A stretch of 23,020 nt of DNA, taken from positions 1-23,020 of the IMG/VR virus record IMGVR_UViG_3300042397_001717; one strand, given 5' to 3'. The translations under genes and the position numbers were made by a program. Shown here piece by piece: positions 784-23,020 of this stretch. Below the pieces are notes generated by a model, which saw nothing but the letters and a program-made list of their open reading frames with translations, was not told the DNA's origin and ran no database searches. This DNA is from a virus. Every line of letters starts with the position of its first letter. Within the stretch, counting starts at the first letter, position 1.

Positions 784-785
784 TA

Positions 786-2728: not shown

Positions 2729-2746
2729 CTCTGAGTTTTTCTAATT

Positions 2747-2754: not shown

Positions 2755-2764
2755 AAATGAGATG

Positions 2765-2787
2765 AGTTTATCGTCCAATAATAAACT
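2765..2787 (+). other. 5'-terminal stem-loop in gp18 leader
   Basis: AGTTTAT (2765-2771) pairs with ATAAACT (2781-2787) around a 9-base loop. If transcription begins near 2760 the stem sits almost at the 5' end of the message and ends just before the ribosome site. Such 5' stems are known to stabilise messages; here that is inference. Confidence 0.4.
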
Positions 2788-2790
2788 GAA

Positions 2791-2796
2791 AAAGGA
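2791..2796 (+). promoter_or_regulatory. Ribosome binding site AAAGGA(G) fixing the gp18 start
   Basis: The strong AAAGGAG overlaps an in-frame GTG at 2797, so that GTG is too close to be used. It is well placed for the ATG at 2806. Confidence 0.75.
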
Positions 2797-2805
2797 GTGC
2801 ACATA

Positions 2806-4695: not shown

Positions 4696-4712
4696 AGAAA
4701 GGCTGAATACAA

Positions 4713-5270
4713 ATGAGTTTTAATGTTAACACATTTAGATCACAACTTGAATTTGGTGGTGCAAAACCATCCTTATTCGATGTGACAATCTTAAATCCAG
4801 TAGCAGGCATCAATGATCAAAAGACAACATTTATGATCAAAGCTGCTTCTCTTCCGTCATCCACTCTCGGTGAGATTCCAGTTGCTTACTTTGGTAGAAC
4901 TATCAAGTTGGCAGGTGATAGAACATTCGAGCCGTGGGGTGTAACTGTTATCAATGATGAAGATTTTGCTGTAAGGAATGCCATGGAAACATGGTCCTCA
5001 TGGATGAATAGTCATGAAGGTAACATTCAGTTATTTGGCACTTCTTCTCCTGCTGCTTATAAAGCACAAGCTATTATTAATCAGTACGGAAAGAATGGTA
5101 ACGTCATCAGAACTTACAAGTTCCACGGATTGTTCCCCACTAATATTGAAGCCATTAATATGGCATGGGATTTGACTGATCAGATTGAAGAATTTGGCGT
5201 CACTTTCTCTTATGATTGGTGGACAGTTGAAGGTTCAACAGGTACTGCTGCAACAGGCTTAGGTATTTAA
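4713..5270 (+). CDS. gp19: Tail tube protein (T4 gp19-like)
   Basis: A 185-residue protein (T4 gp19 is 163). It stacks as hexamers into the inner tube of the contractile tail, through which DNA passes. The pattern SRPSLFDV-like start (here AKPSLFDVTIL), the KAASLPSSTLGEIPVAYFGR segment near residues 44-62, the AGDRTFEPWGVTVIND stretch, and a C-terminal FHGLFPTNIEAINMAWD region are typical of T4-like tube proteins and related to Hcp and gp54-type folds. It ends in a small Gly/Thr/Ala tail longer than in T4. Its start follows gp18 closely with an AAAGG ribosome site. A late-promoter octamer and a terminator-like hairpin lie directly after it, making it the last gene of the gp18 unit. Confidence 0.95.
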   Translation: MSFNVNTFRSQLEFGGAKPSLFDVTILNPVAGINDQKTTFMIKAASLPSSTLGEIPVAYFGRTIKLAGDRTFEPWGVTVINDEDFAVRNAMETWSSWMNSHEGNIQLFGTSSPAAYKAQAIINQYGKNGNVIRTYKFHGLFPTNIEAINMAWDLTDQIEEFGVTFSYDWWTVEGSTGTAATGLGI

Positions 5271-5271
5271 G

Positions 5272-5279
5272 AATAAATA
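5272..5279 (+). promoter_or_regulatory. Late promoter box AATAAATA for gp20
   Basis: The octamer starts one base after the gp19 stop and ends two or three bases before the hairpin at 5282. A start about six bases downstream would fall inside the 5' arm of that hairpin. Confidence 0.65.
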
Positions 5280-5281
5280 AG

Positions 5282-5309
5282 AAGAGAGGAGTAATATCCT
5301 CTCTTTATT
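5282..5309 (+). terminator. Rho-independent terminator-like hairpin after gp19
   Basis: AAGAGAGGA pairs with TCCTCTCTT over nine base pairs (5282-5290 with 5297-5305) around loop GTAATA, followed by a short T-rich run (TTTATT). It would end the gp18-gp19 message. Transcripts starting at the overlapping promoter would lack part of the 5' arm. Confidence 0.7.
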
Positions 5310-5311
5310 AA

Positions 5312-5316
5312 TGGAG
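5312..5316 (+). promoter_or_regulatory. Ribosome binding site TGGAG deciding the gp20 GTG start
   Basis: GGAG at 5313-5316 is eight bases from the GTG at 5325 and only four from an out-of-frame ATG at 5321 that leads to a 12-codon frame. The GTG opens the portal frame and is the likely start. Confidence 0.6.
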
Positions 5317-5324
5317 TCAAATGA

Positions 5325-6929
5325 GTGCGCATCTTTGGTCTGCAAATAACAAAAGCTGAAAATGAAAAAGAAGAAATCCGTTCATTTGCTCCTCCTCCAA
5401 ATGAAGATGGTGCAATAGAAATAGCACCTATTGGTGGTGTTTACGGAACTTACTTAGATTTAAGTGGACAAGCAAAAGACGAAGCTGAAATAGTCACACG
5501 TTATCGTTCTATGGAGCGAGATGCCACAGTTCGTCGAGCAATTGAAGACATAGTAAATGAAGCTATTGTTGTCAGTGAAACCGAAAAACCAGTTAAGATA
5601 GATGTATCTTCTACTCAATTGTCTGTTTCTTTAAGAAAAAGAATAGAAGATGAGTTTGATGGAATTCTAAAACTTCTTGATTTCTCCAATAAAGGTTATG
5701 ATATCTTTCAACGTTGGTATGTAGACGGTCGTTTGAAGTACCATGCAATGATTGATGAAAAAAGTCCTGAAAAAGGGATTAAAGAACTACGATATATTGA
5801 TCCAAGAAAGATCAGAAGAATAAGAGAAATTGTCAAGAAAAAGTTAGGTGATAATGTCGATGGGTTTGAGAAACTAATAAAGCAAGAATACTATATCTAT
5901 TCAGAAAAAGGTTTTGCAAAAAATGTAAAGAATGGTCAATCTTTTGATCCAACTGATAATGACATTAAAGGAATCCGTATAGCTAAAGATTCTATCGTTG
6001 ATGTAAATTCCGGTTTATATACAGAAGATAACTCACTTATTATCAGTCATTTAGACTCAGCTGTAAAGCCATTAAATCAACTTCAAATGCTAGAGAATGC
6101 ATCTATCATTTATCGTTTGGCAAGAGCACCAGAACGCAGAGTCTTTTATCTAGATGTTGGTGATTTGCCAAAAGCTAAAGCTGAACAGTATGTTCATGAT
6201 ATGATGACTAAGCATAAAAATAAGTTAGTCTATGACTCCACAACAGGTGAAGTTAGAGATGATAGACGTTTCATGACCATGTTAGAAGACTTTTGGTTAC
6301 CTAGAAGAGAAGGTGGTCGTGGTACTGAAATAACTACACTTCCTGGCGCTGCAAATTTAGGTGAAATGGACGATATTAATTATTTCAAGAATAATCTTTA
6401 TGAGTCATTAAATGTTCCATCATCCAGATTATCTACTGATTCTACTTTCAGTCTCGGCAAAACAAGTGAGATAACTAGAGATGAAGTAAAATTTGCTAAG
6501 TTTATTCTAAGACTTAGAAATAGATTTGCTATGTTGTTTGATGGTATCTTAGAGAAACAACTTGTTCTTAAGAAAATCTTGACCATGGAAGAATGGTTGG
6601 AAATTAAGAATGTGATAAGGTATAACTTCATTGAAGATAACCATTATCAAGAACTGAAAAGAATAGAGATTCTAAACGGAAGATTAGAAGCTTTAAGAAA
6701 TATCCAAGACTATGTTGGAATCTATTATTCCAAAGCATGGGTAAGAAAGAATGTTCTATTTCTTATGGAAGAAGAAATTGACGAGCTCGGTAAAGAAATG
6801 GAAGATGAAAAAATTACAGAACCACCGCCAGAACCGGATGGTGATGCTAATGATGATGGGTTTGCAGATAGACACGGCAAGTCTCTTCTCAATGGTGAAG
6901 AGAAAGTTTATGAAAATAAAAAGTTATAA
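5325..6929 (+). CDS. gp20: Portal vertex protein (T4 gp20-like)
   Basis: A 534-residue protein (T4 gp20 is 524). Twelve copies form the ring at one capsid vertex: it starts prohead assembly, docks gp17 during packaging and later joins the tail. Recognisable family stretches are RYRSMERDATVRRAIEDIVN (about residues 39-58) with NEAIV directly after it, the ELRYIDPRKIRRIRE region, LNQLQMLENASIIYRLARAP (about 250-270) leading into a RRVFYLDVGDLPK segment, and LPGAANLGEMDDINYFKNNL followed by a LNVPSSRL tunnel-loop region. The start codon is GTG. The stop TAA is embedded in the next late promoter box. The C-terminus is acidic and proline-rich. Family membership is clear from these stretches and from the gene order gp17-18-19-20. 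Confidence 0.96.
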   Translation: MRIFGLQITKAENEKEEIRSFAPPPNEDGAIEIAPIGGVYGTYLDLSGQAKDEAEIVTRYRSMERDATVRRAIEDIVNEAIVVSETEKPVKIDVSSTQLSVSLRKRIEDEFDGILKLLDFSNKGYDIFQRWYVDGRLKYHAMIDEKSPEKGIKELRYIDPRKIRRIREIVKKKLGDNVDGFEKLIKQEYYIYSEKGFAKNVKNGQSFDPTDNDIKGIRIAKDSIVDVNSGLYTEDNSLIISHLDSAVKPLNQLQMLENASIIYRLARAPERRVFYLDVGDLPKAKAEQYVHDMMTKHKNKLVYDSTTGEVRDDRRFMTMLEDFWLPRREGGRGTEITTLPGAANLGEMDDINYFKNNLYESLNVPSSRLSTDSTFSLGKTSEITRDEVKFAKFILRLRNRFAMLFDGILEKQLVLKKILTMEEWLEIKNVIRYNFIEDNHYQELKRIEILNGRLEALRNIQDYVGIYYSKAWVRKNVLFLMEEEIDELGKEMEDEKITEPPPEPDGDANDDGFADRHGKSLLNGEEKVYENKKL

Positions 6930-6932
6930 ATA
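6925..6932 (+). promoter_or_regulatory. Late promoter box TATAAATA for gp67-gp68
   Basis: An exact octamer that contains the gp20 stop codon (6927-6929), 17 bases before the gp67 ATG. Confidence 0.7.
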
Positions 6933-6949
6933 AAAGAAGGATTTACACT

Positions 6950-7168
6950 ATGGATAGATTAAAGAACATTTTAGCTTCTGCAGCTGAAGGTAAGGCAAGT
7001 GATTTTGCATCTGCTGTTCACGATGAGTTAAATGCTAGGATTATGGATAGCATTGAGAATAGAAGAATTGAGATTGCTGATTCTATCTTTGCCAAAGATG
7101 TCGAAGAGATTGATATGGGATCTGTTGACTCAGAAGTAGATGATGTCGACTCATCTAACGAGGAATAA
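6950..7168 (+). CDS. gp67: Prohead core protein (T4 gp67-like)
   Basis: A 72-residue protein (T4 gp67, also called PIP, is 80). It is a small component of the internal scaffold core and is normally degraded by gp21 during head maturation. The N-terminal two thirds form a helix (residues 1-48, with LNARIMDSIENRRIEIADSIF very like the T4 pattern of MAARTIDLIKEEKIAIA), followed by a short acidic tail (DVEEIDMGSVDSEVDDVDSSNEE). The acidic tail is shorter than in T4. Position between gp20 and gp68 supports the call. An AAAGAAGG ribosome site precedes the ATG. Confidence 0.88.
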   Translation: MDRLKNILASAAEGKASDFASAVHDELNARIMDSIENRRIEIADSIFAKDVEEIDMGSVDSEVDDVDSSNEE

Positions 7169-7178
7169 GGAAGAAAAA

Positions 7179-7739
7179 ATGAAGACGTTTAAATCATTCT
7201 TGTCAAGCATAAACGAATCTCCAGAAGAGCCAAGAGGCAAGGATGAGCGTCGTTTCAAGAAAATGCATATAGATGCTACAGATGTTACTGATTATCCTAT
7301 ATCAGGACAAGATCATGTATTCAAAGGCAGCACAAAAAAGAATCCTGGCCGTATTGGAGACATTTCTGAACCAGATACCGATCATTATGACACACAGTAT
7401 GTCGATAATGGAGATGAAGGTGAGGTAAGTCGCGGTGAAGAAGAGGATGATGAAGAGGATGAAGATGAAGACGAAGAAGATGAAGAGCGAGTTGTAAAAA
7501 CTAAGAAAATGCGTACCGATATGGTTGGTGAGGAGACTTTAATAGAAGCTGTTAAGCCTGGTGTAGTTGTTCTAAACGATGGTTCCAAAAGAAACATCAT
7601 CGAATCAGAAGCTAAGGTACTAAACGTTTTATTTACTCAATTAAACTCGTCTAATCGTTTAAAAATGGAAGAAAGACTTACCTCTTCAAACAAAGAATTT
7701 CAAAAAGTTTTAGAGTTTGCAAAAACTTCTATTCGGTAA
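7179..7739 (+). CDS. gp68: Prohead core protein (T4 gp68-like) with acidic tract
   Basis: A 186-residue protein, longer than T4 gp68 (141). It is part of the scaffold core. The start at 7179 (MKTFKSFLSS) is chosen over an upstream in-frame ATG at 7140 because AAGGAAG at 7167-7173 fits it and the earlier start would lie inside gp67. Order: a basic, flexible N-terminal region, an almost pure Asp/Glu tract at residues 79-103, then a compact C-terminal domain (residues 125-186, VKPGVVVLNDGSKRN then NVLFTQLNSSNRLKMEERLT) that I recognise from gp68-type proteins of other T4-like phages. LIE-A at 121-124 fits the gp21 cleavage rule (I/L-x-E). The acidic tract is encoded by a purine run at 7436-7489. 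Confidence 0.75.
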   Translation: MKTFKSFLSSINESPEEPRGKDERRFKKMHIDATDVTDYPISGQDHVFKGSTKKNPGRIGDISEPDTDHYDTQYVDNGDEGEVSRGEEEDDEEDEDEDEEDEERVVKTKKMRTDMVGEETLIEAVKPGVVVLNDGSKRNIIESEAKVLNVLFTQLNSSNRLKMEERLTSSNKEFQKVLEFAKTSIR

Positions 7740-7754
7740 ACTAAAAAGGAAGAG

Positions 7755-7762
7755 AATAAATA
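7755..7762 (+). promoter_or_regulatory. Late promoter box AATAAATA for the first fibre
   Basis: The octamer lies in the 72-base gap between gp68 and the fibre gene, 50 bases before the ATG. The leader after it carries an imperfect direct repeat (TATCTCGCTTTA at 7761, TATCTCGGTCTTTA at 7785). Confidence 0.65.
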
Positions 7763-7811
7763 TCTCGCTTTAAACACATTCGTCTATCTCGGTCTTTAAG
7801 GAATATAACAA

Positions 7812-10800
7812 ATGGCTAATATAGTTTTTAGAATCTTTTCGGAAAAGTTAGGTGCTGTAACAGCATCTCAATTCGTAGGTAACTCTGGTGAGATCTTTTA
7901 TGATCCCGATGCCCTATCATTAAGAATTTCAGATGGTGTTTCACCTGGCGGTAGACTATTAGTTGGTAGCGGTGCTGCTGGTACAGTAGCTACAGATATT
8001 AATGTTACACCAACTGGTGGTATCCAAAGCGCCACCGTCCAAGCTGCTCTTCAGGAATTAGATGCTGAAAAGTTATCTAAGTCTGGCGGAATTATGACCG
8101 GTGAGTTGGTATTGTCTAATACTGCTCCTGTAGATGCATATGCTGCTGTTTCTAAGGCCTTTATGGAAACATACGTTGCAAATACCATTGCTTCTGGTGG
8201 TGTTGTTGCAAATAATGTTGTGTTTAATAATGCAAATACAACACTAACATCTAACACTATTCAGGGTGCAGTTGCCGAACTTGCAACAACCAAACTTTCA
8301 CTAGCTGGTGGTGCATTAACTGGTGCTGTTACAACTTCACAAACAATATTTGCTAACAACGAACTTGTAACTAAGTCATATGTCGAGAATTTAATCTCAA
8401 CAGAAGATACTTACATTGATACCATTGCATTCAGTACAGCAAACGGTGCAATGACATTCGTCAATACTGATGGAACAATCATCAACGTATCATTGAACGG
8501 TCGTTATCTACCGCTATCTGGTGGAACAATGACTGGCGAGTTGATTCTATCAAATACAGCGCCAACTTCAAACAATAGTGCTGCTACAGTCAACTACGTA
8601 TCTAATTATGTTAATAATGCATTTGCTAACGGTTCTGTTCAGGCAAACACTATTACATTTAATAACTCTAGCACTACTACAATTAGTTCAAACACAATTC
8701 AGGGCGCAATTGCTGAACTAGAAGCCGAAAAGGTTGGTAAGGCCGGAGATGTAATGACTGGGTTCCTAACCCTTTCAGCAGACCCAACAGCAAATCTTCA
8801 TGCAACCACAAAGCAATATGTTGATAGCAAGATTGCAAATACAAATATTACTTCTAATAATATTACTTATACACCAACCGGTACACTTGCAGCTAATAAC
8901 GTAACAGCAGCTCTAACAGAACTAGATGCTGAAAAGGTTGCCAAGGCTGGCGATACAATGGCTGGTTACTTAACACTTTATGCTGATCCTATTGCACCGC
9001 TTCATGCTGCAACAAAAGACTATGTTGATGATAAGGTAGCCGCTGGTGGTGGTGCTTCACTACTTGACGACCTTCTAGATGTTAATGCTACTGTACCATT
9101 AGATGGCCAGTCACTTATCTATGATGCTTCATTAACAAGATATATTCTACAGAATAGAGTTAAGAATACCGGTGATACAATGACTGGTGCTCTAACACTA
9201 TCTGGTGCACCAACAGCAAACCTACATGCTGCTACTAAAGCTTATGTTGATACTGTTGCTACAACTGCTGTTGCTGCTCTTATTGACTCAGCACCTACAA
9301 CTTTAGATACACTAAATGAACTTGCTGCTGCACTTGGAGATGATCCTAACTTTGCAACAACAGTAGCAACTAATATTGCCGGTAAGGTTGCTAAGGCTGG
9401 TGATACAATGACAGGGTTCTTGACCCTTTCAGCAGATCCTACAGCTAACTTACATGCTACAACTAAACAGTATGTTGATGTTAAGATTGCAAATACTACA
9501 ATTACAGCAAATAACATTTCGTATACACCCACAGGTGATATCACAGCCAATAACGTTACTGCTGCTCTAACAGAACTAGACAACGAAAAGGTTGCTAAGG
9601 CTGGTGGTGTAATGACTGGTGCATTAACACTATCTGGTGCACCAACAGCAAACCTACATGCTGCTACTAAAGCTTATGTTGATACTGTTGCTACAACTGT
9701 TACTCTTGGTGGATTGACTGATGTTATTGACACTGTAAGTAATACAGCAACACAAACTGGATCTCACCTTAAATGGAATGGAACACAGTGGGCTCCTGGT
9801 TGGACTACTGTAGTTCAATCTATTGATACTGTATTTAATAATAATTTTGCTCTTCTACTAAAAAGTGCTACAGCAGCAGTTTCAGATATTTTAATTGATG
9901 GTAATGATGCTATTACATATAATCCATCAACAAAAACTCTTACTCTTGATAGTAATACTATTACTTCAGCCAAGATTCAAACTTGGGATGGAATTACAGA
10001 AAAGGTTGCTAAATCCGGCGATACAATGACTGGGTTCTTGAACCTATCTGGTGCGCCAACAGCTAACCTTCATGCAGCAACTAAACTTTATGTCGATAGC
10101 AAAACTTATGTTATTAATGATTTGACAGATGTTGATACAACTGGTCTTGCAAATGGTCAAGTTCTATCATGGAATGGTACCAACTTTATTCCATTCTCAC
10201 TACCAGCTGGTACAACAGATACATATACAGCAAACTCAACTATCAATGCTAACGGTGTTGTAACATTTACAAAGAGTGATAACAGCACATATACATTAGA
10301 TATTTCTACTGCTGCTGTACTTGTTGGCGGCGATACTATGACCGGCCTATTGACTCTTTCTGGTGCACCAACTGCTAACCTTCATGCAGCAACTAAGGCT
10401 TATGTTGATGCTGTCCTTCCAGATGGTGTTGCAGATGGTCAAGAACTGTATTGGGATGGTACTGAGTGGACTCCTCAACTTGCAACTGCTTTAAGTCTTC
10501 ATGGTTATACTTCTGACGCATTGGCTGAAGCTGCAATGATTGCTACTGGAACACCAATGGGTGGTGGTAGAGTTTACTGGAATACTACAGATAGTAAGTT
10601 TAGACTTTATAATGGCACGGTTTGGTCAGATGTAACTTCTGCTGGTGATGTTGTTGGACCTGCTTCTGCAACTGATAATGCAATTGCTCGCTTTGATACA
10701 ACAACTGGTAAGTTGATTCAGAGTTCTTTAGCTACTATTAATGACACTGGGTCACTTGTTGCAAATAGTGCTTTTCTATCTTCAAACTTGGTTGTATCTG

Positions 10801-11105
10801 GTGCATACAAATCAGGGTTTGCAACTTCAACTGGTGTTCTTGATTGGTCTGCAAGGTCTTACTATAAGATGACTGCATCATCAGCAATAACAGTTAGCTT
10901 TACTAATGTAGATGCTGTATCAGTCAATTCTATGACCGTTGAGATTGCTATGAGTGGTGGTTCTATTACTTGGCCTACAGCTGTTAAATGGGCTGCAGGT
11001 ACTGCACCAACATTGACCAACTCTAAGACTCACCTAGTCATGTTGTCAACTTCAAATGGTGGTACAACCATTCTTGCGTCAGCCTTGACTGACTTCGTAC
11101 CATAA
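7812..11105 (+). CDS. Tail fibre / virion adhesin with MTG...AATK-YVD repeats
   Basis: A 1097-residue structural protein, probably a trimeric fibre for host binding. Residues 1-50 (FRIFSEKLG, then GEIFYDPDALSLRISDGVSPGG) are a virion-attachment-type domain shared with the fibre at 15925. The shaft holds about ten copies of a 26-residue unit (pattern G-x-x-M-T-G-x-L-x-L-S-x-x-P-T, then AATK-x-YVD) near residues 92, 165, 237, 312, 380, 454, 530, 598, 736 and 840, mixed with LTDV...GQVLSWNGT-type units. After GDVVGPASATDNAIARFD (945-962), a common phage-fibre stretch, comes a C-terminal cap (1002-1097) with ITWPTAVKW and GTAPTL, a beta-domain I recognise at the ends of many phage fibres. Ribosome site TAAGGAA. 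It splits the gp68-gp21 order usual in T4. Which T4 fibre, if any, it replaces cannot be told. Confidence 0.85.
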   Translation: MANIVFRIFSEKLGAVTASQFVGNSGEIFYDPDALSLRISDGVSPGGRLLVGSGAAGTVATDINVTPTGGIQSATVQAALQELDAEKLSKSGGIMTGELVLSNTAPVDAYAAVSKAFMETYVANTIASGGVVANNVVFNNANTTLTSNTIQGAVAELATTKLSLAGGALTGAVTTSQTIFANNELVTKSYVENLISTEDTYIDTIAFSTANGAMTFVNTDGTIINVSLNGRYLPLSGGTMTGELILSNTAPTSNNSAATVNYVSNYVNNAFANGSVQANTITFNNSSTTTISSNTIQGAIAELEAEKVGKAGDVMTGFLTLSADPTANLHATTKQYVDSKIANTNITSNNITYTPTGTLAANNVTAALTELDAEKVAKAGDTMAGYLTLYADPIAPLHAATKDYVDDKVAAGGGASLLDDLLDVNATVPLDGQSLIYDASLTRYILQNRVKNTGDTMTGALTLSGAPTANLHAATKAYVDTVATTAVAALIDSAPTTLDTLNELAAALGDDPNFATTVATNIAGKVAKAGDTMTGFLTLSADPTANLHATTKQYVDVKIANTTITANNISYTPTGDITANNVTAALTELDNEKVAKAGGVMTGALTLSGAPTANLHAATKAYVDTVATTVTLGGLTDVIDTVSNTATQTGSHLKWNGTQWAPGWTTVVQSIDTVFNNNFALLLKSATAAVSDILIDGNDAITYNPSTKTLTLDSNTITSAKIQTWDGITEKVAKSGDTMTGFLNLSGAPTANLHAATKLYVDSKTYVINDLTDVDTTGLANGQVLSWNGTNFIPFSLPAGTTDTYTANSTINANGVVTFTKSDNSTYTLDISTAAVLVGGDTMTGLLTLSGAPTANLHAATKAYVDAVLPDGVADGQELYWDGTEWTPQLATALSLHGYTSDALAEAAMIATGTPMGGGRVYWNTTDSKFRLYNGTVWSDVTSAGDVVGPASATDNAIARFDTTTGKLIQSSLATINDTGSLVANSAFLSSNLVVSGAYKSGFATSTGVLDWSARSYYKMTASSAITVSFTNVDAVSVNSMTVEIAMSGGSITWPTAVKWAAGTAPTLTNSKTHLVMLSTSNGGTTILASALTDFVP
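9193..9267 (+). repeat. Exact 75-base direct repeat, copy 1
   Basis: Identical to 9625-9699 and offset by 432 bases (144 codons), so in frame. It encodes the LTLSGAPTANLHAATKAYVD unit plus TVATT. Other copies of the unit differ at many silent sites, so this pair is recent or kept identical by recombination. Confidence 0.9.
9625..9699 (+). repeat. Exact 75-base direct repeat, copy 2
   Basis: Second copy of the repeat at 9193-9267; the sequences diverge right after the shared acaactg. Confidence 0.9.
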
Positions 11106-11108
11106 ATA
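11101..11108 (+). promoter_or_regulatory. Late promoter box CATAAATA for the chaperone gene
   Basis: The octamer contains the first fibre's stop codon (11103-11105) and ends seven bases before the hairpin at 11116, so a transcript would begin about at the foot of that hairpin. Confidence 0.6.
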
Positions 11109-11115
11109 AAAAAAT

Positions 11116-11142
11116 AGGTGGGGTACATATTGCCCCACCTTT
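11116..11142 (+). terminator. Terminator-like GC hairpin after the first fibre
   Basis: AGGTGGGG (11116-11123) pairs with CCCCACCT (11133-11140) around a 9-base loop: eight pairs, six of them G-C, followed by a short TT. The T-run is short, so termination may be partial; the hairpin may instead serve as a protective 5' end for the downstream message. Confidence 0.6.
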
Positions 11143-11159
11143 ACCAGTTGGAAGAATTA

Positions 11160-11591
11160 ATGATCGTATTTACAAAACCAGATGGCGAACTTGAGTTTCC
11201 AATTTCTTTTGATGAGTTGAGAGCAAGATTTCCACATACTTCATTTCCCCAACCATTAATGCAAAGTGCTTTACCTGCAGGATATCATTTATTTCAACAT
11301 GATGATTGCCCAGTCGTAAATAATAAAAAAAGTGTTGCATTTTTTAGAATAGATGAAATGGGGTTTCCAAAAATAGGTTGGAAACTAGAAGATTATTCTC
11401 AAGAAGAGTGGGCTGAGGCTGAACATAAAGTTGAGTTGGAAATAGAACGATTAGCCAAAGAAGTTTCTTGGTGTTTTGCAGATGATGTTCCTGATAAAAT
11501 AAAGAATAAATACAAAGAATATAGAAAAAAACTTTGGGATATTATCAATCAAGATGGATATCCTTTCAATGTAAAATACCCGGAGGCTTAA
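11160..11591 (+). CDS. Tail fibre assembly chaperone
   Basis: A 143-residue protein. I choose ATG 11160 (GGAAG ribosome site at 11150-11154) over a start at 11118, which lies inside the hairpin. The N-terminal half (MIVFTKPDGELEFPIS) is a small beta-like domain; a charged helix follows (about residues 77-102); the C-terminal KYKEYRKKLWDIINQDGYPF then NVKYP matches the tail-assembly-chaperone signature W/Y-x-x-YR-x-x-L-x-x-I-x-x-Q-x-G-(F/Y)-P, ending in a WP- or YP-type motif. Such proteins help fold or join tail fibres and are usually encoded next to the fibre they serve. It sits between two giant fibre genes and its stop abuts the next start, so the 1426-residue fibre is its likely client. 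It is not itself expected in the virion. Confidence 0.75.
   Translation: MIVFTKPDGELEFPISFDELRARFPHTSFPQPLMQSALPAGYHLFQHDDCPVVNNKKSVAFFRIDEMGFPKIGWKLEDYSQEEWAEAEHKVELEIERLAKEVSWCFADDVPDKIKNKYKEYRKKLWDIINQDGYPFNVKYPEA
11505..11512 (+). promoter_or_regulatory. Possible late promoter box AATAAATA before the Asp-box fibre
   Basis: The octamer lies inside the 3' end of the chaperone gene, 79 bases before the fibre ATG. It could give the long fibre gene its own message, but as in-frame lysine/asparagine codons it may be chance. Confidence 0.25.
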
Positions 11592-14500
11592 ATGGATCCT
11601 ATTAGCTTTATGCGAAATCGCGCCGTAAAATCTACACCAGCAACAACTAAGAGTTTTTATGGTCAGACGTGGGTTACAGATAACGTAAATGATAAAACTG
11701 TTTTTGCATTTATTAAAAATGAACAGTTAGCCGTTCCCCCTTACACAGCCAATAGTACAGTAAAGTATGCTGAAACTACTGGATTTTCTGATGCCGTTGA
11801 TGACTGGTCAGGATTTACTCATGCATTTGCTCCAACAAATTGGGGATCTGGTAATTACCACTCTCAATCTGAATCTTGGGAAGTAAATAGAATAACATTA
11901 CCAACAGTTCCAGGTGCGTTTGCAGCAAATGCGGATAGATCTATCATTGTTGCTTATGGTGGTGGAAATGTAAAACCTAAAGTTTCAACCGATTTTGGCT
12001 CAACATGGATTGATGCTAATACTACTTTACCTAATAATGATTTCCCAGGCATTTTGTTTGCAGAAGGTGCTTTCTATGTAGCATATTCAAATGGTCAAGG
12101 CGTATGGACATCAGTTGATGGTATGACTTGGACAAGTACCAGTAGCATCTTAAATTCAAACTATCTTTTAAAAGCTGGTGCTCCTGGGTATACTGTTATT
12201 GGAGACGTAATTTTTAGCGCTGGTAGAGATTATTTTTCTGCTCAAGCCAGAATTGGCGGGACAAATTATGTTTTTGCAAATTTTGATAAAGTATATGATG
12301 GAAACAGATCTTTACGGTTTGTTACAAAAACAGTAAATTATGAACAAACAAACAATGCTGTGTTAGTTATTTCTAATAAAGTATATTCTGTTACTTGGGA
12401 TGGTACAGCACCTACTGCAACTGAAGTTTTTGATACAGATACGATTTCAAGAAGTTTCTTGGCTATTGCATGGGATGAAGTGAACAACAGATACATTTCA
12501 ATTATGGCCGGATCAAGTTGGACAACAGGTAATGAAATCAGAACTTCATCAGACAATGGTGCAACCTGGACATTACTAAAAGCTATACCAGATGCATATT
12601 CTAATAGAAGTTTTATTGTTGTGCTTGCAAATGGCAAAATAGTTATATCCGGTAATGGTGGAAGTGATGTTATTTACTCACCAGACACAGACACATTTAA
12701 TTTTGGTTCAAGATTCAAAATGACAGGTAACTTACGTTTGACAGAAACAAGATTCTTAATAAGTGCTTATAATATGGATACCAACTCATATACTACTTAC
12801 GCTTCTGATTCTGCTGCCGCAACTGATACTACAAGTATTCTTTCAAAAAGAAAGTGGTTCACTCAAACTTGGGCAGGACAAGCAAATGTTATTATTACAA
12901 CATCATCTGATACTCTTAGGACTTCCTCAAATACCAACGTGACATTTAGTGGCACAAAAGACTATCCTAATGATAAGGGGTTGTACCCATCTTATTTTAA
13001 CGCTAATTCTGTTACACAAGGTACATACTCTTCTGGAGGTCTCAACTACGACACAACTTCATATCTGTGTATGCAAGATACTGCTCATGGAAATTATTCT
13101 CAAAATACACCACAGTATGTTGCAAATATTTGGAAGTCAACTGATAATGGTGTGACTTTTGAAAGGTCAGTTGACTATACAAATAAAGTTACATCTGTCG
13201 ATACAATATCGCACCAATTAAGCAATAATCCTAATTCAAACTGGACTGAAATTACAAAGGGTTCTAGTAATAATCCGATCTTTTCATTCTCACGTATTCT
13301 TTGGAGTCCAAACGATTTTTTTAGTACTCTAGATAGAAGAATCAACTCAGTATCTCCTGCTGGGTTAAATGAGATGTTTTATCAAGACGGCGCTTATTGG
13401 GCTTACGGCCACAATGGTGTTTTGATGACTTCAACTACAGGCAACTCGGGTTGGACTAAGTTTGATAATCTCCAAAAACTTTGCTTTGGAACAAGAATTA
13501 CTGCATTTGCAAAGAACGGAAATAATCTTATTGTATTTACAAACCTTTATTCAACACAATGTTTGTATTCAACAGATCTTGGTGTAACTTGGACAGATTA
13601 CACTACAGCATTTAGAACAGCTTGGGGTATATCTTTCACTGGTTGGAATATTAATAAGGATTCTGTAGCTACTGCATGCATTTGGGATGGAACTCAGTGG
13701 ATTGTTGCTGCGGCCGGAGCAAGTTCTGGAAGCCTTCTTGTTTCTACAAACGGTTCAACTTGGACTAAGAAAACTTCTTACCCAAGCAATTTTTCAACCA
13801 TTCCTATGACAATTACAAAACACCCAACTGACTCAACAATCTTAATTGGTTGTAGGAATGCTGGAATTGTTGTTACTAATACTTCTCTTGCTACATTCAC
13901 AACTCTTGGTTTTAGCAGTTATGGGTTTTCTTCAATTGTTACAAAGATTATTTGGAATGGTTCTACTTGGTTTGCGTTCTTTGAAACGGGGTCACAAGGT
14001 AGATATACTTATTCAACAGTAGCTAATCCAACCTCACTTGCAAATTGGAAAAGTCCATTAGTCCTAGCCGATTTCCCGGCCACTAGAAGATTTGGCGGCA
14101 CAACATCAACACTCAATGCAACAAATGCTTATTGGGATGGTACAAACATATTAATTGTTGATTACTACAATAGAAAAGCATTCAAATCACCAAATGGTGA
14201 TAACTGGACAGAAATGACTGGTTTGTATAGTAATACTCTTTGGAAGAAGTTCTCAAAACATCCATGGGCTATTGCTTCTAATGGCACTATGTATGTAGCA
14301 GTCGGTGACATGTGTGATAGTGGACACTCAACTGATGGTGGCTCAAATTGGTCAACAAATGCTGGCACAAAAATTGCTGCTGGTGTGGAAGATCCAACAG
14401 CAAGTCTCACCTTAGATACATATATTGCAAGTACGCTTACTATAACAAATGGTGGTTCTGGATACCCACCAAACGAAAGTAATCTTGCTGTAACAGTGAC

Positions 14501-15872
14501 ATTTAGTAATCCAACAGGTACTCCGGCAGTAAAACCAATTACTGGTACTATTATGACAAATAGTTCTGGTGCAATTTCACAAATTAACATTGATAACTAT
14601 GGATTTGTTTCAGGTTACACAACAGCTCCTATTATTACTAGTATTACTGGAAGCACAGGAAGTGGTGCAACAGCAACTGCAACATTGTTGTACAAACTAG
14701 GCGCAACAAGAATGATCAACTTAGGTAAGGGTCTTGGTCCTACTTACAGTACATATGCCAGCTTTCCATCTACTAAACACGACCAATTTGAAATTGGTGT
14801 TGTCCCAGAATATCCAGATCCTACCGGTATACCAGGAGTATCACTAAATAGTACACCAACACGAATAAGATTTGCTTTGGGGAACAAAAGGTTTACAAAT
14901 ACTGGTTTTAATAGCGGTGCATCTCTTTTAAGTGGTAATGATTCGGGTTCAATGATAATTAATAGTCCTTCAGGTTCAGGTGTATTTTTTTCGGGGGTAA
15001 ATTACTCAATATTAAATAGTTTTTCAAACGGACAACAAAAAACCTCATGTCCAGTATCATATAAAAGTATATATACATCAGATTGGATTTGTAAAGAATT
15101 TGCTCCAACAACAACTAAACCTCTTACTTCTTTTAATGCATCTTCTCCTTTTGTTGACAATACTGGTGCTCCATATGTCTTTTTTAATATTGAAAAAAGA
15201 GTATTTGCAAGTAATATTTCAATTTTTAGTGGTGGATTTAATTACAACACAGAGATAACTACTTTAGTTTCTGCAATTCAAGCTGAATATACTTCTTCTA
15301 ATAACACGTTAAAGTTTACCCCATCACTTTATAAGTATGGTATTGAAACTTACGGATCTTTCATTAGTGAAGACAATCCAACAAGTATTATTGCTAACTT
15401 ACCAGTAGACATGTCACTTAAATTAACTGGCACTGACTTGGATTCGTTTAGATCAAATAATCAAATATATATTACTACTCCGTTTGTTTTTGTTGCGTGT
15501 AACGGCGGGAACGAAAATACCCCAGGTAATACTGTTGTAATTACTATGCAAAAACCAAAAACGTATCCTATGAACGATTTTACACAGCAACAACCAAATT
15601 CAGTTAATGAGGTGTATTGGTTTAAGTCTACAAACGGCGGATCAAGTTGGACTGATATTTCTGCTCCAATAAGAGCTAAATATAATACTTTAGGTATTAT
15701 ATTTTCACAACAAAAATATAGTGTTGCACTTCCACTATTCATGAATTGGTCACAACATGAACAAGTGTGGTATTCAATCACACAAGATCAATATGTTATA
15801 TGGTCAAGAGACTTAACAAACTGGACTGTTGCAAGAGATCCTGCAATTCAGTTCCCAGATTATCCAGATTAA
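11592..15872 (+). CDS. Giant tail fibre/adhesin with Asp-box propeller repeats
   Basis: A 1426-residue protein, start fixed by GGAGG at 11582-11586 and an ATG touching the chaperone stop. It carries at least ten Asp-box-type motifs (S/T-x-D/N-x-G-x-x-W): STDFGSTW 132, SVDGMTW 174, SSDNGATW 319, STDNGVTF 516, STDLGVTW 660, STNGSTW 718, SPNGDNW 866, STDGGSNW 913, STNGGSSW 1346, SRDLTNW 1405. These mark blade turns of sialidase/BNR and photosystem-assembly-type beta-propellers, here probably two or more propellers. Residues about 946-1032 (ITNGGSGYPP ... SGATATATLL) are a separate beta-module known from phage fibres. No arginine triad or FRIP motif shows it to be a sialidase, so a glycan-binding adhesin is likelier. 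It lacks the N-terminal domain shared by the fibres on either side; how it attaches is unknown. Residues 1033-1340 match nothing I recognise. Confidence 0.75.
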   Translation: MDPISFMRNRAVKSTPATTKSFYGQTWVTDNVNDKTVFAFIKNEQLAVPPYTANSTVKYAETTGFSDAVDDWSGFTHAFAPTNWGSGNYHSQSESWEVNRITLPTVPGAFAANADRSIIVAYGGGNVKPKVSTDFGSTWIDANTTLPNNDFPGILFAEGAFYVAYSNGQGVWTSVDGMTWTSTSSILNSNYLLKAGAPGYTVIGDVIFSAGRDYFSAQARIGGTNYVFANFDKVYDGNRSLRFVTKTVNYEQTNNAVLVISNKVYSVTWDGTAPTATEVFDTDTISRSFLAIAWDEVNNRYISIMAGSSWTTGNEIRTSSDNGATWTLLKAIPDAYSNRSFIVVLANGKIVISGNGGSDVIYSPDTDTFNFGSRFKMTGNLRLTETRFLISAYNMDTNSYTTYASDSAAATDTTSILSKRKWFTQTWAGQANVIITTSSDTLRTSSNTNVTFSGTKDYPNDKGLYPSYFNANSVTQGTYSSGGLNYDTTSYLCMQDTAHGNYSQNTPQYVANIWKSTDNGVTFERSVDYTNKVTSVDTISHQLSNNPNSNWTEITKGSSNNPIFSFSRILWSPNDFFSTLDRRINSVSPAGLNEMFYQDGAYWAYGHNGVLMTSTTGNSGWTKFDNLQKLCFGTRITAFAKNGNNLIVFTNLYSTQCLYSTDLGVTWTDYTTAFRTAWGISFTGWNINKDSVATACIWDGTQWIVAAAGASSGSLLVSTNGSTWTKKTSYPSNFSTIPMTITKHPTDSTILIGCRNAGIVVTNTSLATFTTLGFSSYGFSSIVTKIIWNGSTWFAFFETGSQGRYTYSTVANPTSLANWKSPLVLADFPATRRFGGTTSTLNATNAYWDGTNILIVDYYNRKAFKSPNGDNWTEMTGLYSNTLWKKFSKHPWAIASNGTMYVAVGDMCDSGHSTDGGSNWSTNAGTKIAAGVEDPTASLTLDTYIASTLTITNGGSGYPPNESNLAVTVTFSNPTGTPAVKPITGTIMTNSSGAISQINIDNYGFVSGYTTAPIITSITGSTGSGATATATLLYKLGATRMINLGKGLGPTYSTYASFPSTKHDQFEIGVVPEYPDPTGIPGVSLNSTPTRIRFALGNKRFTNTGFNSGASLLSGNDSGSMIINSPSGSGVFFSGVNYSILNSFSNGQQKTSCPVSYKSIYTSDWICKEFAPTTTKPLTSFNASSPFVDNTGAPYVFFNIEKRVFASNISIFSGGFNYNTEITTLVSAIQAEYTSSNNTLKFTPSLYKYGIETYGSFISEDNPTSIIANLPVDMSLKLTGTDLDSFRSNNQIYITTPFVFVACNGGNENTPGNTVVITMQKPKTYPMNDFTQQQPNSVNEVYWFKSTNGGSSWTDISAPIRAKYNTLGIIFSQQKYSVALPLFMNWSQHEQVWYSITQDQYVIWSRDLTNWTVARDPAIQFPDYPD

Positions 15873-15893
15873 AGTAAGCATTAAACTTTTCTT

Positions 15894-15901
15894 AATAAAT
15901 A
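15894..15901 (+). promoter_or_regulatory. Late promoter box AATAAATA for the RCC1-like fibre
   Basis: The octamer lies in the 52-base gap between the two large fibre genes, 23 bases before the ATG at 15925. Confidence 0.65.
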
Positions 15902-15924
15902 ACTAAATACGATAGGGAAGATAA

Positions 15925-18900
15925 ATGTCATTTAACAATACTACATTCCAACTGTTTTCACAACATTTAGGAAACTCAGATGTTGCCGATTTTATTGGTG
16001 AAAGAGGCGAGATTTTCTACGACCCTAATACTGGCATTTTGAAACTATCGGATGGTATTAATCCTGGTGGTATCTCTATTACATCTGGTGCTGGTGGATC
16101 ATTTGATCCTTCATTGTACTATACTCGTGCAGCAGTAGATGGTAAGTTTACTCAACTTATTGGTTCTGCTGATACTCAAAGTGATACACTTGGGGAACTT
16201 CAGGTAAAGGTAGATGATAAACTTGGACTTGCTGGTGGTACACTTAGAGGTCCAGTTTATTATGCGCCACTTCCAACAGGAACAAATGAACTTACCAATA
16301 AGAACTATGTAGATCAAAAAGTATCAACAAGTATTACTACTTCACTAGCAACATTAACAACTGATTATGTTGCAGAAGGTTCACTAAATAAGTACTTCAC
16401 TGATACTAGAGCAGATGCAAACTTTGCACTAAACGTTGCACAGCCATTAAAGACTCAAGGTCTTGTTCGTAAGGTAAATGGTATTGCACCTGACTCAACT
16501 GGTGGAATTTCTATCTCACTTACCACAACAGTTACTGGTGATCTTGCATCTCAGCCTGCATCAGCAGATGATGGCACACTTTATGTTATCGTTAATGATG
16601 CTGATGCAAATAATGATGGTCGCAGTTTTGTTTGGGCTAATACTTCAAGTGAATGGGTAGAACTAGCCCCATCTGATACTGCAGCTAACGACGCTCGATA
16701 TATTAATGTTGCTGGTGATACAATGACCGGCAATCTAACACTAGCATCTAATCCAACCACTCCACTACATGCTGCAACCAAGCAATATGTAGATACTGCT
16801 GTAAGTGCTATTGCATTTGCTCTCGATGATCTAAGTGATGCCAATACAGCAACTGCAACTGTAGGTCAATCACTAGTTTATAATGGTACAAACTGGGTTC
16901 CAGCAACACCTGCAGCAAAACTCGGTGACCTTACAGATGTGTCTAATACAGCACCAGGCACTGGTTATATTCTTGGTTGGGATTCTGCAAATAGCGAATG
17001 GAAGCCAATTGCTTCTTCTGCATCACCAACACTTGCTTCATTGCTTGATGTTGATATTACTGGTGTAGCAAATAATAGTACCCTTCAATATAGTGCTGCA
17101 ACAACTGAGTGGAAAGTTACTACACCACAACCAAAGAAAGCAACAATGTTTGCAGACCATGGTGTTGGTTGGGGTCGTTCACATGTTTATGGAAATGAAG
17201 TATTCTGTGCAGGGTTTGCTGAATCCGGTGATAGAATTCACGCATGGAATCATTCTGGTCATGTAAGAAGATCTATATCAGCACCATTTGAAGTAAGACC
17301 ACCTGGTATTGCAAAACTTGTTGAAGGCATTTCATACCAACATGTACTTGGCACTGACGGTATTCTTTATTCTAGAGGTAGAGATGCCGAAGGTCAAATG
17401 GGTACAAATGCTTCGCCTGGTCGTCCAATTGATGATAGAGGTGGTATCTTCAGACAAAATCGTGACCCCAAAGTTTATGGACCTGGCATCTCTGTAATCA
17501 ACGTATGGTCTCATCGTGTTCACAATTGGGACGGTGGTGACGGTGGTTCGCTTTGGGTAGAAGTGAATGATAATGGCACTAAGAAGCTTTATGCTGCTGG
17601 TTATAATGGCAATGGTGTACTTGGTGTTGGAGGTATCGCAAATGCGGGTGCACTAACAAGTTTATCTATATTGGACGGTAAGGGAATTAAGAAACTTGAT
17701 TGTGTGCACACACTTATGTGCTTGATTACCAACGACGGTGAACTACATGCTGCTGGTTATAACAACAACGGTGCGCTTGCTCTTGACTTTATTGGTAATA
17801 CTTCTATTGCAAGAGCAAAATATGCTGATGGAACGTTTGTAACAAATGCAATTAATGTTCAAGTTTCATGGGTCAATGGTACTGGTACACAATCATGGTT
17901 CCTAAGAGGCGATGGGACAGTTTGGGGTTCTGGTTTAAATACAGAAAGTAACCTTGGTATTGGTGTTTCAACTAACGTTACAAAGTACAATCAAGTTCTT
18001 ACGGCCGCAAGTACACCAATTACTGGTGTTGTAAAGATCAGAGAAGTTGGTCGTGGTCAGTTGTTCATGCTAAAGTCTGATGGCACTGTTTGGGCTACAG
18101 GCAGAAATCATGATAGTTGCTTTGGTAACTCAGCATTTACACCAAATACAAATATTGGTAACTTTGCTAGACAGATTCAATCTGATATTCAAGATTTCTG
18201 GTCAGTTGGCGGTGCAGCACCTGGTTGGTGTACTGTATACTGGAAGAAAAATGACAAAATGTTCTTTAGTGGAACCAATGCTAACTTTACTGGTGGTTCA
18301 TTTACTGAAGCGCTCGGCGGAAATTACTATAACTTCTTACAACCTATTGAAACTTTTGATGGTAAAACTGTTGTTGATGTAAAACCGTTCAATAAAATAA
18401 ATGATGATCAAACTGGTAATTACCGCTCTACCATGTTCCTCACTGACGATGGTGAAATCTATGTTTCAGGCTTTAGTAATTATTGCCACGTTATAAATGA
18501 TGCTGATGGTATTTACCTTAAGACTCCTTATAAATTAACAGACTATCTTGAAGGTGCAACAGAAACTGTTTATGTAAGCAAGACAGAAACAGATCTTCCA
18601 ACAGGTGCATCAAATGGTCAAGTACTTACTTACAATGGTACTGAATGGATTGCAAAGACATTTGTTCCTGACACATTAACAACTGTTACTAAAGTAACTG
18701 GTCAGTGGACACTTAATCCTGGGTTGAATAATGTTTCGTTTACTGTTCCATTCAACCAAGTGGTAAATGCTTTCGTTCTTGGTAACATTCCAAATGGTAT
18801 CGTGACATATGACGGTACGTTCATCGTAACTAATGGAAACGTGAATGCGGTTGGTAATCAGTATGCATGGTCTTATACTCTTGCTGGTGATGCTCATGCA

Positions 18901-19071
18901 TTAGAACTAGTCTCTATTCCTGATCAGATTGTCGGTACAAGCGGAACGATTTTAAGAACTGCTGGGACTTTTGGTGGTGGTAGAATAGATGCTAACGTTC
19001 TTAAGTTTACCATCAATAACAAAACAGCATCACCACAGACCGTCAACTATGGTTATGTGCCATTATCATAA
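15925..19071 (+). CDS. Tail fibre/adhesin with RCC1-like beta-propeller
   Basis: A 1048-residue protein. Residues 1-52 (FQLFSQHLG, GEIFYDPNTGILKLSDGINPGG) match the N-terminus of the fibre at 7812, so both probably dock on the same virion site. Two MTG/AATK-YVD units (about 104 and 263) and LTDV...LGWDSANSEW-type units form the shaft to about 400. Residues about 415-865 hold around eight RCC1-like repeats with the D/N-G-x-(V/L)-(W/Y)-x-x-G-x-N pattern: GTDGILYSRGRDAEGQMG 476, NDNGTKKLYAAGYNGNGVLG 548, TNDGELHAAGYNNNGALAL 602, RGDGTVWGSGLNTESNLGIG 661, KSDGTVWATGRN 717, and TDDGEIYVSGF 840. This predicts a seven- or eight-bladed propeller, likely the receptor-binding head. The C-terminal cap (925-1048) with LGNIPNGIV, ELVSIPDQIVGT and VNYGY is a domain ending many T4-like and cyanophage fibres. 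Ribosome site AGGGAAG. Confidence 0.85.
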   Translation: MSFNNTTFQLFSQHLGNSDVADFIGERGEIFYDPNTGILKLSDGINPGGISITSGAGGSFDPSLYYTRAAVDGKFTQLIGSADTQSDTLGELQVKVDDKLGLAGGTLRGPVYYAPLPTGTNELTNKNYVDQKVSTSITTSLATLTTDYVAEGSLNKYFTDTRADANFALNVAQPLKTQGLVRKVNGIAPDSTGGISISLTTTVTGDLASQPASADDGTLYVIVNDADANNDGRSFVWANTSSEWVELAPSDTAANDARYINVAGDTMTGNLTLASNPTTPLHAATKQYVDTAVSAIAFALDDLSDANTATATVGQSLVYNGTNWVPATPAAKLGDLTDVSNTAPGTGYILGWDSANSEWKPIASSASPTLASLLDVDITGVANNSTLQYSAATTEWKVTTPQPKKATMFADHGVGWGRSHVYGNEVFCAGFAESGDRIHAWNHSGHVRRSISAPFEVRPPGIAKLVEGISYQHVLGTDGILYSRGRDAEGQMGTNASPGRPIDDRGGIFRQNRDPKVYGPGISVINVWSHRVHNWDGGDGGSLWVEVNDNGTKKLYAAGYNGNGVLGVGGIANAGALTSLSILDGKGIKKLDCVHTLMCLITNDGELHAAGYNNNGALALDFIGNTSIARAKYADGTFVTNAINVQVSWVNGTGTQSWFLRGDGTVWGSGLNTESNLGIGVSTNVTKYNQVLTAASTPITGVVKIREVGRGQLFMLKSDGTVWATGRNHDSCFGNSAFTPNTNIGNFARQIQSDIQDFWSVGGAAPGWCTVYWKKNDKMFFSGTNANFTGGSFTEALGGNYYNFLQPIETFDGKTVVDVKPFNKINDDQTGNYRSTMFLTDDGEIYVSGFSNYCHVINDADGIYLKTPYKLTDYLEGATETVYVSKTETDLPTGASNGQVLTYNGTEWIAKTFVPDTLTTVTKVTGQWTLNPGLNNVSFTVPFNQVVNAFVLGNIPNGIVTYDGTFIVTNGNVNAVGNQYAWSYTLAGDAHALELVSIPDQIVGTSGTILRTAGTFGGGRIDANVLKFTINNKTASPQTVNYGYVPLS

Positions 19072-19105: not shown

Positions 19106-19113
19106 AATAAATA
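19106..19113 (+). promoter_or_regulatory. Late promoter box AATAAATA for gp21
   Basis: The octamer lies in the 63-base AT-rich gap after the RCC1-like fibre, 21 bases before the GTG start of gp21. Confidence 0.65.
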
Positions 19114-19134: not shown

Positions 19135-19791
19135 GTGAAACTTATTACAGAACTCAATGAAGATGTTGGTGTTATTGTAGAAAAGAATGAAGATGGTAAG
19201 AAGAACCTTTACATCGAAGGAATCTTCTTACAGTCTGCGATTGAAAATAAGAATGGAAGATTCTATCCAGAACTAGTAATGGACAAAGAAGTTGCCCGTT
19301 ACATGAAAGAATCAGTTGAACAAAAGAGAGCACTGGGTGAACTTGGCCACCCAGAAGGACCTCAGATCAATCTAGATAGAACTTCACATCTTATTACATC
19401 TTTGAAAAAAGAAGGCACTAACTATGTCGGTAAGGCCCGTATTATGGATACACCTATGGGCAATATCGCAAAAGGACTTGTTGAGTCTGGTGTTCGTTTA
19501 GGTGTATCATCTCGTGGCATGGGAACTTTAGCAAAGAATGCTAAAGGCATCATGGAAGTACAAAGAGACTTTAGACTTGCAACTGCTGCAGATATTGTAG
19601 CAGATCCTTCTGCTCCTAATGCTTTTGTCAATGGTATTATGGAAAATGTAAGTTGGGTTTGGGATGATAAATATGGTTGGAAGGCTATGGAAGTAGCAGA
19701 AAGTATTCAACATGAAGTCAAGTCAAACTATAAAAAGATTGATGAACAAGTAATGTTACAAATGTTCAATAAGTTTATTGGAAATCTTTGA
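19135..19791 (+). CDS. gp21: Prohead core scaffold protease (T4 gp21-like)
   Basis: A 218-residue serine protease (T4 gp21 is 212). Held in the prohead core, it cleaves gp23, gp67, gp68, gp22 and itself after I/L-x-E, allowing capsid expansion. The fold is that of herpesvirus-type assembly proteases. H72 in LGELGHPEG and S125 or S126 in RLGVSSRGMG fit the catalytic His and Ser of T4 gp21 (recalled as His85 and Ser140), with a spacing of 53-54 here against 55. Also typical are NGRFYPELV (about 40-48) and LATAADIVADPSAPNAFV (about 147-164). The start is GTG with AAGGAT upstream, which may hold its level down. It has its own late box on each side, and the fibre block separates it from gp68. Confidence 0.95.
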   Translation: MKLITELNEDVGVIVEKNEDGKKNLYIEGIFLQSAIENKNGRFYPELVMDKEVARYMKESVEQKRALGELGHPEGPQINLDRTSHLITSLKKEGTNYVGKARIMDTPMGNIAKGLVESGVRLGVSSRGMGTLAKNAKGIMEVQRDFRLATAADIVADPSAPNAFVNGIMENVSWVWDDKYGWKAMEVAESIQHEVKSNYKKIDEQVMLQMFNKFIGNL

Positions 19792-22142: not shown

Positions 22143-22169
22143 AGGGAGGGCTTTATGCTCTCCCTTTTT
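22143..22169 (+). terminator. Rho-independent terminator after gp23
   Basis: AGGGAGGGC pairs with GCTCTCCCT (one G-T pair) around loop TTTAT and is followed by five Ts. It should end the gp23 message. The minus-strand endonuclease gene ends within its loop (stop at 22153-22155). The complement lacks a T-run, so it need not work in both directions. Confidence 0.85.
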
Positions 22170-23020
22170 GCCATATGTATTTAGCATTACCACAGTCCCA
22201 AATTCGATCATAATTATTGTTTAACATATTATCAAATTCCGTTAATTCGGAATCAAAACTTTCCAGTAAATCTTTAAGTTTATGTTTTTGAAACTTCACT
22301 CTAGAATAAAGTTTTGCTGTACCTTTTTTCCAATAGAAATAATTACATCCTGTGTCTTCAACATACACAAAATTGCTGTAAATATAACTTTCACCTGTGC
22401 CAAATCTCAAATCTGCAAAAGTTGTAAGTATTTCTGGTTGTTTATCTTTAATGAAGTTTTTCATAAGTTTACTAACACCACCTACAACTCTTATATTACT
22501 AGGTGAAGTCATACGTATGCATTCAAATCCAGCATTAAATCTATTCTTTCCGAAAGAACTTACCATAACTAAATCATTACCGTAGAATAACCCGTAGTGA
22601 TAATTAGCACCAACACCATTTGATAGATGGTGAAGATTATGAAAGTTTAATGCTTCTTTTGTATTAATAACTTTAATTATACAATTTCTGGCATAAATAG
22701 TTTGTATTGATTTATGACCGAACTTTTTCAATATCAAACTTTTGATCTTTTCAAGATTATCAGATTCAAAAACAGTAATCAGTTGATAACCTGCTTCTTT
22801 GCATTTCAACATCTTCATCCTATGATAGTTCTTATCTTTATTAGATGAGAACTCAGAATGCCAATAAAGTCCACAATACTCAATTGCTATCTTTTTGGTG
22901 TGATTTACGATATCTAATTCATAAGGTGCTATAATAGTTTTGTTACAATATTCTATTTCATGTTCAGGAAATTCAGAAATACACCATTCGCACAAATCTA
23001 TTTCAGCTTTGCTCCTATAT
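22153..23020 (-). CDS. VSR-like (EDxHD) homing endonuclease, runs off right edge
   Basis: The frame is open to the window edge: 288 residues are visible, beginning YRSKAEIDLCEWCISEF, so the real start lies beyond 23020 (a TTG at 22995 is only the first possible internal start). The pattern SKAE near the N-terminus, then YELDIVNHTKKIAIEYCGLYW, HSE, KNYHRMKMLKC and GYQLITVFESD is that of the VSR-like EDxHD homing nuclease fold (E in SKAE, D in ELD, E in AIEYCG, H in YWHSE). The C-terminal half (AREN-type ARNCIIKVINTKEALNFHNL, then HYGLFYGNDLVMVSSFGKNR, VVGGVSKLMKNF, FADLRFGTGESY) is the domain that accompanies it in many phage proteins, probably for DNA binding. It is convergent with gp23 and uses the terminator hairpin sequence for its last residues (QKGRA). 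Likely a selfish element targeting a nearby structural gene of related phages. Confidence 0.82.
   Translation of the reverse strand, partial: YRSKAEIDLCEWCISEFPEHEIEYCNKTIIAPYELDIVNHTKKIAIEYCGLYWHSEFSSNKDKNYHRMKMLKCKEAGYQLITVFESDNLEKIKSLILKKFGHKSIQTIYARNCIIKVINTKEALNFHNLHHLSNGVGANYHYGLFYGNDLVMVSSFGKNRFNAGFECIRMTSPSNIRVVGGVSKLMKNFIKDKQPEILTTFADLRFGTGESYIYSNFVYVEDTGCNYFYWKKGTAKLYSRVKFQKHKLKDLLESFDSELTEFDNMLNNNYDRIWDCGNAKYIWQKGRA

Follow-up and report, generated by a model that had tools for sequence, protein, structure and literature searches.

The window, by which we mean the whole 23,020-base stretch of DNA analysed, is IMG/VR record IMGVR_UViG_3300042397_001717, itself a single 23-kb contig. 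Family matches and similarity to T4-like phages place its head genes in T4-like order and in one direction (gp16-17-18-19-20-67-68, then gp21-22-23), with a sole break between gp68 and gp21. This break of 11,395 nt is occupied by fibA, a chaperone-like gene, fibB, and fibC, all of them open and on the plus strand (Table 1). A preliminary description of this DNA had gp68 and gp21 separated by just such a unidirectional block of fibre genes plus a chaperone gene, and the ORFs bear it out. By gp23, the closest cultured relatives (62-64%) are Melnitz (Methylophilales), DLP6 (Stenotrophomonas), and marine cyanophages. Both gp67 and gp68 are tentative names, drawn from position and weak PHROG matches rather than strong family matches, and the gp68-like ORF has no match in cultured phages. 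Searches of NCBIfam and Rfam returned no matches.

Table 1. Features of the gp20-gp21 region (positions are those of the window)
Feature	Position	Strand	Evidence or remark
gp20 portal protein, left conserved flank	5325..6929	+	tblastn, 46-60% identity to T4-like relatives
gp67-like prohead core protein	6950..7168	+	weak PHROG "prohead" match (E 0.004), plus position
gp68-like prohead core protein	7140..7739	+	position; C terminus matches gp68-position ORFs of L051, L055, L097
Late box AATAAATA before fibA	7755..7762	+	
fibA, 1097 aa: N-terminal anchor, repeat shaft, C-terminal beta cap	7812..11105	+	PHROGs, PDB
Mtd_N-like anchor of fibA, ~55 aa	7812..7979	+	identity to fibC; AF2 model; PDB folds
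Seven 97-nt shaft repeats of fibA, GDTMTGxLTLSGAPTANLHAATKAYVD type	8745..10425	+	
Late box CATAAATA before chaperone gene	11101..11108	+	
Tail-fibre assembly chaperone-like gene, 157 aa	11118..11591	+	PHROG tail fibre assembly, E 1.4e-6
fibB, 1426 aa, probable Asp-box beta-propeller protein	11592..15872	+	motif count
Late box AATAAATA before fibC	15894..15901	+	
fibC, 1048 aa: anchor, short shaft, RCC1-like propeller, C-terminal beta domain	15925..19071	+	
Mtd_N-like anchor of fibC	15925..16104	+	likeness to fibA N terminus
RCC1-like propeller region of fibC, aa 461-791	17305..18297	+	PF25390, 74.8 bits, E 1e-20, under curated cut-off of 150
C-terminal beta domain of fibC	18637..19068	+	~40% identity in L297, L302
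Late box AATAAATA before gp21	19106..19113	+	
gp21 prohead protease, right conserved flank	19135..19791	+	Peptidase_S77, E 4.5e-37; PHROG head maturation protease, E 2.3e-75

fibA matches tail-fibre PHROGs (E 2.5e-23) and the tail collar fibre of PDB entry 9d93 (E 1.1e-12), and its C-terminal cap is matched in Limnohabitans phage DC31 and in the relative L076. A recent duplication is indicated by the 95% identity of two of its shaft repeats (9171 and 9603); an eighth copy of the 97-nt unit is found in fibC, whose short shaft includes one repeat of the fibA type. The product of the chaperone-like gene falls below the Pfam cut-off for Phage_tail_APC (E 0.004, 17.3 bits against 26.6), and it matches a chaperone-like ORF of L051 (E 6.7e-7) that itself passes this cut-off at 66.5 bits.

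The preliminary description proposed three binding strategies for the three fibres: a repeat shaft with a beta cap, an Asp-box propeller, and an RCC1-like propeller. The RCC1 repeats of fibC are firm, exceeding the Pfam cut-offs for both RCC1_2 (PF13540; 33.1 against 22 bits) and RCC1 (PF00415; 23.7 against 21.7 bits) and matching UVR8 and RPGR in the PDB with E ~1e-5. The propeller of fibB, by comparison, is a probable reading by motif count: four strict SxDxGxxW Asp boxes where 0.02 are expected, and seven relaxed ones against 0.7. fibB has no Pfam or PHROG family match and, over its length, no relatives in cultured phages, viral contigs, or the PDB; the only match is for a short piece (aa 948 to 1032), to L010 in its gp17-gp18 gap. 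An AlphaFold2 model of fibB residues 80 to 960, made without relatives, had a mean pLDDT of 29 and was discarded.

Homologues of the C-terminal beta domain of fibC in L297 and L302 are short proteins in which this domain is joined almost directly to the anchor, so fibC gives the impression of two standard fibre modules with a propeller set between them. Phage-encoded RCC1-type repeats are shared with phAPEC6-type jumbo phages, in which RCC1-like proteins have been proposed to condense DNA (PMC7247149). In fibC, a fibre shaft precedes the repeats and a C-terminal beta domain follows them, an arrangement that favours an adhesin, unlike the phAPEC6 proposal.

The N termini of fibA and fibC (~55 residues) are 46% identical. 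An AF2 model of this shared anchor, built from 20 relatives, reached a pLDDT of 81, and among PDB folds the N terminus of the Major Tropism Determinant (Mtd), a tail-fibre adhesin, ranks best, with a probability of 0.97-0.99 but an E value of only ~0.1. The fold predicted for the N termini of both proteins may resemble that of the N-terminal domain of Mtd of Bordetella phage BPP-1, whereas the sequence match to Mtd_N (PF18454) lies below the cut-off (14.4 against 26.3 bits for fibA). Across the anchor family, 6 of 13 relatives tested match Mtd_N weakly in sequence, with a best E of 0.014. A docking domain like Mtd_N is the best reading of the model, and, since the anchor is common to fibA and fibC, both probably dock at the same kind of virion site. 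Neither a reverse transcriptase nor a variable repeat was seen in the window, which therefore gives no sign of a diversity-generating cassette.

Relatives of the anchor occur in 43 viral contigs, and among 50,697 cultured phage records in only four, all of them S-CAM7. In the window and L278-L310, it heads proteins, short ones among them, with quite different C-terminal kinds in many places of T4-like genomes: the gp45-gp44 and gp15-gp17 intervals, the neighbourhoods of gp41 and phoH, and a site preceding gp25. The domain is thus a handle for finding accessory adhesins scattered across T4-like genomes. A further link to the anchor, suggested by phrog_36222 for a 706-aa fibre of L207, was discarded, since the part of the profile matched is a different one.

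The block had also been described as punctuated by late boxes. Indeed, the T4 late promoter core, ATAAATA, is found 16 times on the plus strand of the whole window, where a first-order Markov model predicts ~4.5, and once on the minus strand. Nine of the 16 sit 17-57 nt upstream of gene starts (P ~1e-9), preceding gp18, gp20, gp67, fibA, the chaperone gene, fibC, gp21, gp22, and gp23. Three of the four cassette genes therefore have a late box of their own, the exception being fibB, which abuts the chaperone gene. These boxes suggest that the cassette is transcribed late, alongside the head genes.

The same data bear on whether an assembler joined the fibre block of another phage into the head cluster. 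In favour of such a chimera, the window is a single metagenome contig, represented by its assembled sequence. Nevertheless, the codon usage of the fibre genes agrees with that of the core genes (r 0.88-0.91), late boxes of the same type and spacing stand before fibA, the chaperone gene, fibC, and gp21, the gene junctions are clean on both sides, and analogous inserts are found in independent contigs (see below); we regard a chimera as very unlikely. The native codon usage likewise gives no sign of recent foreign origin, so "inserted" is a word to use with care. The cassette edges share no direct repeats of at least 10 nt between the two flanks and are marked by no recombinase. Neither invertase-type nor long inverted repeats were found in the window, and fibre switching by inversion was dropped as an explanation on the lack of the latter.

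In relatives, the gap between gp20 and gp21 has a median of 1.37 kb and is typically free of fibres. It holds gp67-like and gp68-like genes and usually one small low-charge ORF adjoining gp21, found in 89/138 contigs under a strict rule; the window lacks this ORF and has fibres instead. Excess gap length is due in part to long gp68-like ORFs. Similarly, gp20 and gp21 are near enough to be joined under the rule of the search tool (spacing of at most ~1.6 kb) in 2358/2535 records of cultured phages. The separation of the two genes in Vibrio phage SRILMA reflects a rearranged cluster with no fibres there and was set aside. The small ORF before gp21 (L002-L268) encodes 75-180 aa, mostly without a family match, and is possibly a head decoration protein.

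According to the preliminary description, the presence of the same three fibre genes in all relatives, as conserved as the head genes, would argue against a swappable cassette. Instead, fibA, fibB, fibC, and the chaperone gene are absent from the gp20-gp21 interval of every relative examined, and gene order between gp68 and gp21, which the description suggested comparing, proved variable in content. The clearest case is L098, L099, and L102, which are 95-96% identical in gp17, 93-95% in gp20, and 95-96% in gp21 and yet differ in the slot itself: only in L099 is gp68 followed, ahead of gp21, by a second, tandem paralogue of the small protein and by a gene for a tail protein of 603 aa (PHROG tail, E 5.6e-92). 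Here gp68 (48-76% identical) and the small protein (52-76%) diverge fast. More generally, in 21/21 close pairs the gp20-gp21 interval, 65-91% conserved, is less conserved than gp20 and gp21, and its size often differs.

We surveyed seven head-cluster junctions, with low-charge ORFs of at least 200 aa standing in, roughly, for adhesin or virion proteins. Such ORFs lie between gp20 and gp21 in 5/126 contigs, against 2/795 contig-junctions at the other six (Fisher P 7e-4, duplicate contigs removed), with large inserts undercounted owing to the survey's 10-kb flank limit. The gp20-gp21 junction thus holds most of the insertions; at gp16-gp17 a long low-charge ORF is present in only 2/109 contigs.

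A minority of relatives have other adhesin-like, tail, or collagen-like genes between gp20 and gp21. One of these, contig G001 (L114, positions 263-10732), has a closed 12.2-kb insert encoding a collagen-like protein of 405 aa, a cysteine-rich one of 159 aa, three virion-type proteins (995, 784, and 838 aa), and a 201-aa ORF; this insert lies on the gp20-gp67 side rather than the gp68-gp21 side. In L207, L238, L085, and L211, long runs of collagen-like and fibre-type genes follow gp20, with gp21 outside the stretch read. The run in G011 (L207 and L276; IMGVR_UViG_3300020056_000101) extends for >20 kb from gp20 to the contig end and consists of collagen-like, fibre-like, and glycine-rich virion-type genes; as the contig lacks gp21, we did not count it as an insertion.

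Taken together, these results make it probable that the window carries a host-recognition cassette in the gp68-gp21 slot and that the gp20-gp21 interval repeatedly gains and loses accessory virion genes in this lineage. The support from variability concerns the site in related lineages and not exchange of the window's own cassette: no relative has the same fibres at the site, so exchange of this cassette itself was not seen. Native codon usage, edges unmarked by repeats or a recombinase, and a chaperone below its Pfam cut-off speak against the cassette reading, as does the varying side of insertion, several large inserts (G001 among them) lying between gp20 and gp67.

We considered whether the ordinary fibre module of the lineage instead moved once to gp68-gp21 and is now fixed there. 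Native codon usage and regular late-promoter spacing fit such a relocation, and L051 and L076 have chaperone-like genes upstream of gp13, accompanied in L076 by a fibA-related fibre tip, as if the module had moved from there. A fixed module is at odds, however, with a slot whose content differs between 95%-identical phages of a related lineage and with an interval that generally evolves fast, and we think this history unlikely. Fibres that decorate the capsid rather than the tail would explain the place of the cassette among head genes. The small low-charge protein usual in the slot could be such a decoration, and some genes in the inserts of relatives match head or virion-structural PHROGs (phrog_1645 in L114, phrog_19577 in L207). 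Against this stand the shaft repeats, the assembly-chaperone-like gene, and the PHROG and PDB matches, all of tail-fibre type, as well as the likeness of the anchor to the N terminus of a tail-fibre adhesin, which together make head fibres very unlikely.

As a module, the probable host-recognition cassette is of a familiar kind; what is new is where it lies. In pelagimyophages and cyanomyophages, the host recognition cluster (HRC), a hypervariable tail-fibre island, always lies between VrlC and the neck gene gp14, and its structural operon is reported to encode collagen repeats, Mtd, and concanavalin-type domains (PMC7029224). Like the HRC, the cassette places tail-fibre genes inside the structural region of a T4-like aquatic phage, at a site of variable content in relatives; unlike it, the cassette lies between gp68 and gp21 and has no glycosyltransferases. 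As it does not occupy the VrlC-gp14 position, it is not the HRC itself, though it would work in the same way. The gp68-gp21 junction also differs from the hyperplastic region of cyanomyoviruses between g15 and g18, described in the passage of PMC2984593 that cites Millard 2009 as a hot spot of gene insertion in the structural module, mainly for metabolic genes. In Melnitz, fibres and assembly chaperones are encoded between a VrlC-like gene and gp13; a further tail fibre assembly chaperone precedes gp16, and the gp16-gp17 junction holds an F5/8-type protein. The chaperone-like genes of L051 and L076 and the fibre tip of L076, upstream of gp13, likewise stand where the published cluster sits. 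In the marine myovirus Alteromonas phage V22, too, a large and variable adhesin gene, for the receptor-binding protein, comes with a chaperone of its own, and host binding was tested there (PMC7289586); V22 is not T4-like. In our searches of the open-access literature, we found no description of fibres between gp68 and gp21.

The site thus looks like an additional, changeable place of host recognition. With late transcription, the products of all four cassette genes would be made at the same time as the head proteins. The small gene product may serve either fibA or fibB, its two neighbours, as a chaperone for trimerisation, and fibA and fibC would form trimeric fibres docked by their Mtd_N-like anchors at the same kind of virion site. 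The distal cap, Asp-box, and RCC1 domains could then bind glycans or proteins of the host surface, and cassettes might be exchanged when gp20 and gp21, the conserved flanks, recombine. For the three proteins, several receptors or alternative fibres are possible. A bolder reading, which we hold doubtful, makes gp20-gp21 a second place, as yet undescribed, at which adhesins land in the genomes of T4-like environmental phages, with fibA and fibC competing for one socket through the Mtd_N-like anchor, so that particles would carry mixed or alternative fibres reading different receptors.

In the papers we found, the host-recognition islands of T4-like aquatic phages lie near neck and baseplate genes; with a changeable adhesin site in the head cluster as well, a look at those islands alone can overlook genes for host range. 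Further, gp20 and gp21, both standard marker genes, flank a fast-changing segment.

Other accessory genes were noted in and around the head cluster. In Synechococcus phage RN05-S (L323, 1641-3089), a gene annotated "chaperone of endosialidase" directly follows gp23, a further place for accessory structural genes. L097 has a 274-aa HNH-like ORF (17697-18521) between the small ORF and gp21, the slot that holds the fibres in the window. In the window itself, an HNH-type homing endonuclease lies directly after gp23 on the opposite strand (22153-23019, minus strand), and a possible fragment of a GIY-YIG endonuclease precedes gp16 (3-197, minus strand).
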